Below, piece after piece: positions 17,481 to 22,289 of a stretch of 32,815 bases of DNA. Made by a program: the position numbers and the translations under genes. The DNA comes from Kiloniellaceae bacterium (GTDB taxonomy: Bacteria; Pseudomonadota; Alphaproteobacteria; Kiloniellales; J153). The notes below the pieces were generated by a model, which searched no databases, was not told where the DNA came from, and was given only the letters and a program-made list of their open reading frames with translations. Position 1 is the first letter of the stretch, and every line of letters starts with the position of its first letter. Location: contig JAJFGP010000025.1 in assembly GCA_021776055.1 (NCBI GenBank), positions 1-32,815 of the forward strand, in the 5' to 3' direction.

Positions 17481-18821
17481 ATGAGCCGGTTGGCAACCGA
17501 TCGCGCGGGCGCTGTAACCGCGGCTGAGTTTGCCGCGCTCATGCGCATCTTCGAACCCTTCGAACCGAAACCACACCTGGTGGCTGCCGTCTCCGGCGGT
17601 GCCGACAGCATGGCGTTGGCCGTGCTGCTGCGCCGGTGGGCGCAGGCGCGTGGCGGCGCGGTGACAGCGCTGAGCGTCGATCACGGCTTGCGCCGGGCAT
17701 CGGCCGCCGAAGCGGCACAGGTTGGCCGGACCCTGCGTCCGCTCGGCCTCACGCACCAGGTTCTGCGCTGGCGCGGCGACAAGCCGACCGCCAATGTGCA
17801 GGCGGCGGCGCGGCGTGCCCGCTATGCCCTGCTCGGCGACTGGTGTGCCCGCCGTGGTGTCCTGCACCTGGTGTTGGGTCATCAACTGGAGGATCAGGCG
17901 GAAACCTTCTTGCTGCGCCTTGGCCGGGGCAGTGGTCTGGACGGCTTGGCGGCCATGGCGGCGGTCACCGAGACACCAACGCTGCGCTTGCTGCGCCCGA
18001 TGCTCGGTCTGCCGCGCGCCCGGCTGGAGGCGACGCTGCGCCGTCGCGGCTTGCCCTGGATCGAGGATCCGAGCAACCAGGACCCCGCCCATGCGCGGGT
18101 GCGAATGCGTGGGCTTATGCCGACCCTGGCGGCTGAGGGGCTGAGTCCGGGCCGTCTGGCCGTCACGGCCGCACGGCTGGGTCGGGCCCGCGCGGCGCTG
18201 GAGCAATCTACGGCGAGGCTCCTGGCGCAGGCGGCCGTGGTCCATCCGGCGGGCTTCGTTTGGCTGGACCCGGCGCCCATGGCCGTTGCCGCCCCAGAGG
18301 TGGGCCTACGTGCCCTAGCCCGCGTCGCCATGCTGGCGGGGGGGCTGGAGTACCCGCCGCGCCTGGAGCGCCTGGAGCGGCTCTATGAGCGTGTTGTAGC
18401 CGGGTTGAGTAGTGGCATGACCCTGGGCGGATGCCGCTTCATGCCAATCTCGGGACGCATTCTAGTCGTGCGTGAACCCGCCAGGATTGGCGAGAATTCG
18501 GTTCGGGCGGGTGAGGCTCTGCACTGGGATCATCGCTTTGCCCTGCGGGTGCACCAGAGCGCCCGGGCGCGCCGTGGCGGCCTTACCGTGGGGGCCCTTG
18601 GGACCGCCGGTTGGGCGGAAGTGCGAGCTGCCGAGCCGGCGCTTGGCAACGCTATTCCGGCCCCGGCAAGACATGGATTACCGGCCTTGCGCGATGGCCT
18701 GGGGGTGATTTCGGTCCCGCAATTGGGCTACGAGCGGTCGAAAAAGAAGAGATTAACCATGATGACCGGCAGTTTTTTGCCAAGAATTTCTTTAACTGCC
18801 GGGTCCTTTACAGTTGCTTAG
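17481..18821 (+). CDS. tilS: tRNA(Ile)-lysidine synthetase
   Basis: Adds lysine to C34 of the tRNA-Ile with CAU anticodon using ATP, so that it reads AUA. The PP-loop SGGADS is at residues 38-43, followed by the family motifs VDHGLR and [19 protein letters not shown], and [12 protein letters not shown]. Length 446 residues matches alphaproteobacterial enzymes with a C-terminal substrate-binding domain. AGGGGG lies immediately upstream of the ATG at 17481. It precedes ftsH, the usual neighbour. The last about 20 residues are encoded by distinctly AT-richer DNA. Confidence 0.93.
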
Positions 18822-18925
18822 TCGAGAACGCACATTATCTTAATAGGCAAGAGGCTCAAGAAAGTGGGCTTGATTTGCGTCTGGCCGACGGGTGGCCAAG
18901 ACGCGCTGAGGAAGGGGACCGGGAC

Positions 18926-20854
<1,929 letters not shown>

Positions 20855-20876: not shown

Positions 20877-21165
20877 CTAGAGCATAGTCCGACCAGATTG
20901 AATCGTCTGCGCCGGAGCCATTTGTGGCGCGGGCAGGAGCGGGGCGCCCAGTGTTTCTCAAGGCTTGGGCGTAGCGGGACTACGGGCAAGCCTCGCGACG
21001 CAGCCGCGCCGCAAAGGGCCCCGGCCCTTCGGGTTGTGCCCTGGCGGGCGCCCGCTGTGTTGCGTCGCTTGGCCGATGTCCCGCATCGGCCTGCGCGGCG
21101 CGCCTGGCGGATCGCCGCCCCAGGGCGCAACGCAGGCGGTTCAATCTGGTCGGTCTATGCTCTAG
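20877..21165. repeat. MITE-like element with 35-bp terminal inverted repeats
   Basis: A 289-bp non-coding element between ftsH and folP. Its ends, 20877-20911 and 21131-21165, are inverted repeats matching at 32 of 35 positions; each starts CTAGAGCATAG. The outermost CTAG is a palindrome and could be a target-site duplication. The interior holds nested hairpins: AGGCTTG...CAAGCCT at 20961-20993 with an inner CGTAG/CTACG stem, and GGCCGATG-TCCCG-CATCGGCC at 21071-21091. No transposase is encoded; short open frames inside (for example 20965-21165 on plus) are by-products of the repeat. It probably spread by a transposase acting in trans, which is inference. Confidence 0.8.
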
Positions 21166-21172
21166 TATCGCG

Positions 21173-21202
21173 AAGCCCCGTGCGTGCACGGGGCTTTCGT
21201 GT
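21173..21202 (+). terminator. Perfect stem-loop after the MITE, before folP
   Basis: AAGCCCCGTGC-GT-GCACGGGGCTT is a perfect 11-bp stem at 21173-21196, followed by TCGTGT. It resembles a Rho-independent terminator with a weak T-tract and would end ftsH transcripts. Only 37 bp remain before the folP ATG, too little for a full promoter, so partial readthrough or a promoter inside the repeat element is likely. Confidence 0.5.
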
Positions 21203-21233: not shown

Positions 21234-22289
21234 ATGACCGCCAGTCTCACGCTTCGTCCGCTGGTTCAGGTTGGCGCGGTGACGACCGCCGATGATTTGC
21301 CGCTTGCCGGTGGGCCGTTGCGATTTCACCAATGCGAAGCTGTCGTTCGCGAGGGGATCCGCGAACGCGCCAGGGCTGTCGTCGGTGCGGTGCAGGCCGT
21401 AGCCTGGGCCGAGGAATTCGGACTCGCGTCCGACGCCAAGGACCTGTTGCACCGGCTGAGCACCCCGCGGCCTCCCTTTGCCAGCCTGGACTTAGGCCAG
21501 CCGCAGGTCATGGGCGTCATCAACGTCACCCCCGACAGCTTCTCCGACGGCGGGGACCGCTTTGACCCGGCGCGGGCCATTGCCGATGGATTGGCCATGC
21601 ACGAGGCGGGGGCATCGATCCTCGACGTCGGTGGCGAATCGACACGCCCCGGCGCGGCGCCCGTACCACCGAAGGAGGAATTGCATCGTGTCGTTCCCGT
21701 GGTCGAGGGGCTGGCCAAGGCCGGCGCCCTGGTCTCCATCGACAGCCGGCGCGCGGCGGTCATGGCCGCGGCCCTGGATGTGGGCGCCCGGATCATCAAC
21801 GACGTGACGGCGTTGGCCGGTGACCCCGAGAGCCTGGCCCTGGCCGCTCGGCGCGAGGCGCCGGTTATCCTCATGCACATGCAGGGCGAGCCGCGGACCA
21901 TGCAGCGCGAGCCGCACTATGACGATGCGCCCCTGGATGTGTACGACGTCCTGGCGGTACGGGTGGCCGCCTGCGAGGCGGCGGGCATTCCACGCGCACG
22001 AATCGCTATCGATCCCGGCATCGGCTTTGGCAAGACGGTGGTTCACAACCTGCGTATCCTCGATCAACTCGCGGTCTTCCACGGCCTGGGATGTGCGGTG
22101 GTCCTCGGCGTTAGCCGCAAAAGCTTCATTGGCCGGCTGACCGGCGCGCAGGCGGCAAAGGCCCGGCTGCCCGGGTCGCTGGCCGGGGCGCTGGCGGGGG
22201 TAGCACGCGGTGCCCAGGTCATCCGCGCCCACGACGTGGCGGAGACTCGGCAAGCCATGACAATCTGGACGGCGATCGCGGAGGGGTAG
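21234..22289 (+). CDS. folP: Dihydropteroate synthase
   Basis: Condenses 6-hydroxymethyl-dihydropterin diphosphate with p-aminobenzoate in folate synthesis; the target of sulfonamides. The TIM-barrel signatures are MGVINVTPDSFSDGG (residues 93-107), LDVGGESTRPGA, SIDS, a IINDVTAL loop, IDPGIGFGKT and GVSRKSFIG. An N-terminal extension of about 85 residues (LPLAGGPLRFHQCEAV) precedes the barrel; from memory this is common in alphaproteobacterial FolP. No strong ribosome-binding site is seen. It follows the ftsH-MITE-hairpin region and precedes glmM, an ordinary gene order. Confidence 0.95.
   Translation: MTASLTLRPLVQVGAVTTADDLPLAGGPLRFHQCEAVVREGIRERARAVVGAVQAVAWAEEFGLASDAKDLLHRLSTPRPPFASLDLGQPQVMGVINVTPDSFSDGGDRFDPARAIADGLAMHEAGASILDVGGESTRPGAAPVPPKEELHRVVPVVEGLAKAGALVSIDSRRAAVMAAALDVGARIINDVTALAGDPESLALAARREAPVILMHMQGEPRTMQREPHYDDAPLDVYDVLAVRVAACEAAGIPRARIAIDPGIGFGKTVVHNLRILDQLAVFHGLGCAVVLGVSRKSFIGRLTGAQAAKARLPGSLAGALAGVARGAQVIRAHDVAETRQAMTIWTAIAEG

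Follow-up and report, generated by a model that had tools for sequence, protein, structure and literature searches.

A folded core found in small elements with the ends of quite different transposons suggests that such parasites can change helper

Between ftsH and folP of a Kiloniellaceae bacterium lies a MITE with IS630-type ends, and the folded core that it carries, two long hairpins whose heads are inverted, is not tied to one end type, for it also occurs between ends that belong to other transposase groups. A MITE with ends of the IS630 type is in itself nothing unusual; the occurrence of one folded core in small elements with the ends of quite different transposons suggests that such parasites can change helper. 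The element was studied in a stretch of 32,815 nucleotides (contig JAJFGP010000025.1 of assembly GCA_021776055.1, positions 1 to 32,815; hereafter the window). The best explanation of the whole, to which we assign a probability of roughly 0.7, combines a MITE mobilized in trans by an IS630-family transposase, a core that is independent of its ends, and copying between the arms that enables a switch of transposase. The usual picture of a MITE is that of a shortened insertion sequence, tied to the transposase of that one sequence; if the ends are exchangeable while the core persists, the survival of such elements beyond their helper transposases would be explained, and one could test directly what arm-to-arm copying does in palindromes.

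The inverted repeat of the original prediction is confirmed, with 35-nt arms at 20877-20911 and 21131-21165 that are complementary at 32 of 35 positions (91%), CTAG at both outer ends, and no transposase in the interior. The extent then proposed, 289 bp (20877-21165), holds for the arms and has to be redrawn at the boundary: with one target TA per side, the element spans 20878-21164 (287 bp; 283 bp without the TAs), as supported by the inverted repeat, the copies in its own genome, and the empty orthologous site in a genome of the same genus (G001). It therefore has the short size and matched terminal inverted repeats (TIRs) by which MITEs are defined. The left TIR (20880-20911, plus strand), which starts with GAGC, and the right TIR (21131-21162, minus strand) were located by inverted-repeat search. 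The left head hairpin (20922-21014, plus strand; 39.2 bits with head model R1) is damaged by an 18-nt insertion at about 20948-20965 (plus strand, limits set by eye in the copy alignment), which is common to copy C113; two aligned copies, C101 and C113, carry it. The right head hairpin is inverted (21044-21118, minus strand; 58.1 bits with R1). Both inner hairpins noted earlier are present; the first (20961-20993, AGGCTTG...CAAGCCT) is partly made by the 18-nt insertion, and the second (21071-21091, GGCCGATG/CATCGGCC) is the tip of the larger 75-nt right head. A mini-hairpin, CCC-TTC-GGG (21026-21034, plus strand), was read from the sequence between the two long hairpins, and the same place pairs in other copies. 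Folded as DNA, the element reaches -112.9 kcal/mol, compared with a mean of -71.9 for 200 shuffled versions (sd 3.9; z -10.5), none of which was as low.

The element is neither single-copy nor conserved at its site. BLAST of the element against its own genome returned five near-full copies and further partial matches, and a TIR pattern has 22 matches there; in the order, 14 of 61 genomes carry a TIR pattern (reversed control, 0 in both cases). The G001 spacer between ftsH and folP lacks the element and can be aligned through the joined site. When the flanks of eight further own-genome sites were joined, six were spanned by a single match in this one same-genus genome, on which the empty-site test is based: gapless at the joined TA for C50, C126 (at 24.6 kb), and C1, with one gap nearby for C97, and gapped for C29 and C7. 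The C113 site has a G001 match on its right flank only, and the C161 site has no match in G001. The multiple copies, the absence from the same G001 spacer, and TIRs like those of IS630-family elements firmly establish the window element as a MITE, as first proposed. A plasmid search found no copies of it; for a related element, there was one partial match, from Thalassospira. Three 63-bp copies in the same genome (C29, C7, and C1; loci L164, L165, and L167) consist of the arms and a similar short loop, occupy sites without an element in G001, and look like a mobile ends-only form. Solitary right arms without a matching left arm also occur (C25:3765-3792 and C126:17217-17244) and are possible relics of decayed copies.

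CTAG had been proposed as a 4-bp target duplication, which the copies do not support and which we reject. Sites without C...G flanks (C97 and C126 at 24.6 kb) keep TA next to both ends, and the G001 sites align across a single joined TA; because the sites lacking C...G still have TA at both ends, the direct repeat is best read as TA, with CTAG as the preferred target. On this evidence and on the TA at both ends of the copies, the duplicated target would be 20878-20879 on the left and 21163-21164 on the right. Among 34 paired copies, TA is present at 32 left and 31 right ends; these copies were chosen by the TAGAGC consensus with mismatches, many of them through the pattern CTAGAGC, so that their flank counts lean to C. 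In nine paired own-genome copies found without that C, C precedes in 6/9 and G follows in 7/9. At the window site, the G001 sequence has no clean CTAG, and the ancestral target is not readable there. For IS630, duplication of TA and a preference for CTAG are published behaviour (PMC2170065, which lists Tenzen and Ohtsubo 1991, a work whose title is to the same effect).

The ends of the element match those of IS630-family elements of the order, whereas the middle of the TIR differs; the left TIR has in common with them only the outermost bases and a later GAA. At least 29 DDE_3 matches occur in the order, and among the 29 loci examined for TA-initial inverted repeats, 7 are IS630-family elements whose two ends, separated by 1047 to 1093 bp, both carry CTAGAGC. 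One CTAGAGC element (G052, contig C10), first reached from the TIR side, contains two frames that NCBIfam assigns to IS630 transposase, the score of one piece exceeding the cut-off and that of the other falling short of it. In the 1095-bp element L080, the IS630 transposase is split over two frames, as if frameshifted or broken. The own assembly of 183 contigs gives no DDE_3 (IS630-type) match over the cut-off, possibly through a collapsed or missing repeat; several contigs of G054 end inside such elements. MITEs with IS630/Tc1-mariner ends resemble the window element in small size, lack of a transposase, matched TIRs, TA duplication, and favoured CTAG (for the behaviour of IS630, PMC2170065); the window element differs in an interior that is unlike the IS630 elements examined and common to MITEs with other ends. 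From these ends and targets, we infer that a CTAG located between ftsH and a terminator-like hairpin received the MITE at its TA, and that an IS630-family (Tc1/mariner-type) transposase acting in trans would have cut at the GAGC ends.

Folding of the 34 paired copies separated them by size into an ends-only class (about 48-63 bp), an intermediate class (about 127-216 bp), and a class of about 265-295 bp. Elements of the largest class have two long hairpins, often with a mini-hairpin between them, and each long hairpin ends in a head; the core comprises two long hairpins with inverted 75-nt heads, mostly 101-107 bp apart. In an alignment of 44 heads from elements less than 85% identical to one another, 20 of 26 pairs changed on both sides (compensatory), and 89% of the cells pair, compared with 28 to 41% in slid versions. 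The innermost helix says little here, being largely fixed by the search pattern, and the AGG/ACG internal loop lies outside that pattern. A covariance model of the head has 36 matches in the own genome, which by our own count form 13 inverted pairs, 11 spaced at 101-104 bp and 2 at 122 bp, the latter (the window element and C113) because of the 18-nt insertion. With strict filters and the own genome included, heads were matched in 17 of 190 genomes sampled from the class and in 18 of 299 sampled from the phylum, 13 of them outside the class, where heads are 104-107 bp apart in the three loci with both scored (L458, L463, and L464). A head pattern scan of named genomes gave at least 80 loci, all titled Alphaproteobacteria, one of its groups, or unranked Proteobacteria; the 89 non-redundant matches of a corrected regular expression include many by chance and are excluded from our claims. 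The head model provides a way to find such elements for annotation whatever their ends. No Rfam covariance model matched at gathering score, only below it, and a known structured RNA was rejected accordingly. Integron attC sites have conserved GTTRRRY/RYYYAAC boxes; this identity was rejected too, as the bases before AGGC vary in the head alignment and the boxes are not conserved.

The core may function as a recognized single-strand structure, or it may be a palindrome kept by arm copying alone. In the former case, the core would be a folded signal of RNA or single-stranded DNA recognized by a protein of the host or the element, as REPIN hairpins are thought to be recognized by RAYTs; the ends would be only the vehicle, selection on the signal rather than arm copying would keep the stems paired, and the two inverted heads would provide either strand with one usable head towards its 5' side. 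We consider this possible rather than probable. The conserved internal loops and covarying stems agree with it, and in the head stems, both arms show more G.T than A.C on the head-sense strand (70 vs 18 cells; 33 vs 5 of the 44 sequences), while the outer stems are balanced (11 vs 11), which is what heads acting as folded single strands would lead one to expect. The G.T excess, however, keeps its direction and loses its significance in thinned sets of 13 (7 vs 3) or 12 sequences, no Rfam family was found at gathering, and 78 elements showed no preference for gene context or orientation (5 undetermined; gene directions from a simple codon-score caller, not from annotation). A position-dependent host role was rejected on the same 78 elements. 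RNA-level structure over the whole element was also rejected, with G.T and A.C nearly balanced (44 vs 58) in a 30-element alignment, a result that narrows the question to the heads.

The nearest printed parallel that we found is the REPIN, as described in PMC3116915: like the core, REPINs are intergenic, consist of two inverted hairpin units with compensatory changes, and are predicted to fold as single-stranded DNA or RNA, whereas the core element moves with TA-flanked TIRs and its heads measure about 75 nt and have internal loops. No constant counterpart of the GTAG foot of REP units was seen by eye in the head alignment. Other palindromic repeats of Alphaproteobacteria are the RIME and ABC elements of rhizobia and the Rickettsia palindromic elements. 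Bacterial MITEs with long folded interiors likewise include MITEPye1 of Paracoccus yeei (PMC11578231), which differs in its IS1182-type ends, and QMITE2 of Coxiella (PMC10969869); one core under different ends is not described in the passages on these two elements. Nor did titles and abstracts in the literature covered, with most subscription journals outside that coverage, describe a shared core under different ends.

The ends around the core are of several kinds. In a survey of 20 own-genome loci (5 without a detected end pair, two of these at contig ends), core elements begin with TAGAGC, TACCAA, or TAGTGTCCTG, and 41-46 nt separate a head from an end; an IS630-family element in G001 (L116) has TAGTGTCCTG ends as well. 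Among 80 listed loci of the head pattern, 28 have no end pair, and TA is followed by GAGC in 27, CCAA in 6, GCCC in 4, and other letters in 15, a group that includes some inner pairs in place of true ends. A 1.66-kb element on a Stutzerimonas plasmid, with an annotated IS1380 transposase that NCBIfam confirms, has ends of the TAGCCCGCATTTCTCAC type. Further genomes yielded elements with TAGCACCC, TAGGGTCCG, and other ends (19 loci examined, no pair in L402 and L411, and the head position merely assumed for some), and no insertion sequence was tied to TAGGGTCCG or GTGTCCTGCCC ends in plasmids. For TACCAA ends, no clear pair at insertion-sequence distance was seen by eye among the matches listed from 59 genomes, and a partner transposase was not found. 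This MITE type is very abundant in a 3.2-Mb relative (G002), as judged from 64 forward and 63 reverse matches of the TACCAA end pattern and none in the reversed control. Taken together, one core of nearly constant geometry is flanked by ends from no fewer than two named transposase families (IS630 and IS1380) and from several unnamed types.

An ordinary internal-deletion derivative of one IS630 element, with an interior due to common descent and ends that differ by slow TIR divergence, is an unlikely source of this pattern. It would account for the IS630-type ends, the TA target, and the grouping of most cores by end type, whereas IS1380 ends belong to another transposase family, and none of the 31 IS-related sources searched contains the heads. 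We rejected this origin on the latter result, and for the same reason, we speak of IS630-type ends and not of an element that is IS630-derived throughout. The phylogeny of the core also argues against it. A quick maximum-likelihood tree was computed from 90 cores after trimming 34 nt from either end, and end classes were assigned from the first 14 bases by a rule of our own. The five classes need at least 11 changes on this tree, compared with a least possible number of 4, and starred branches alone force at least three changes for TACCAA and four for TAGAGC; the number of changes is rough, given that some rows are long and that the inner branches are open in about half of the cases. The end labels are strongly clustered (11 changes vs a shuffled mean of 30), indicating that switches are rare events.

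How an end could be exchanged is suggested by the arms. In the own genome, the mean number of differences over 18 positions is 0.56 between the two arms of one copy and 5.56 between arms of different copies (none of 20000 permutations was as low); seven private variants are found in both arms and one in one arm only (the window copy), and a truncated 49-bp copy adds three single-arm differences. The same test shows no variation in G001 and the same direction, weakly, in G007, in G045 with G049, and in G054, whereas in G008 the arms of one copy differ more than those of different copies; these sequence comparisons support arm copying in the own genome only. Such copying across the palindrome, with one arm as the template for the other, would keep both arms of an element alike; a new end gained on one side would be copied to the other, through which the core could switch transposase. 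Arm copying and end switching would together be the most economical account of the spread of the core. A more tentative reading, to which we give less than even odds, is that the two-headed core is itself a long-lived selfish unit: it would outlive any one transposase by switching its ends through palindrome copying, and transposases of the IS630 type, the IS1380 type, and others would have carried it through Alphaproteobacteria and further classes of Pseudomonadota.

The genes flanking the element were identified correctly in the original prediction, as judged from Pfam: ftsH (18611-20854, plus strand; Peptidase_M41/FtsH_ext) is given as the longest frame, and its true start may be later, and folP (21234-22289, plus strand; Pterin_bind) encodes a pterin-binding enzyme. 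The gene order is tilS-like, ftsH, element, folP, and glmM-like. A terminator-like inverted repeat, recognized by sequence at 21173-21196 (plus strand) between the element and folP, has a short T run, was not flagged by a consensus terminator scan, and is also present in G001. Since the element lies between the ftsH stop codon and this hairpin common to G001, the suggested change in ftsH-folP coupling is not supported, and a strong effect of the element on folP is not expected from the sequence. That the inverted repeat is instead immobile and serves the host in regulation at the end of ftsH, for instance as a 3' structure of the mRNA, is very improbable: its strong folding and its start 23 nt past the ftsH stop codon would fit, whereas G001 has no such element in the corresponding spacer, none appears in the readable short ftsH-folP spacers, and copies lie at unrelated sites. 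In G047 (L203), a TAGAGC...GCTCTA repeat of about 33 bp is situated right at the ftsH stop codon.
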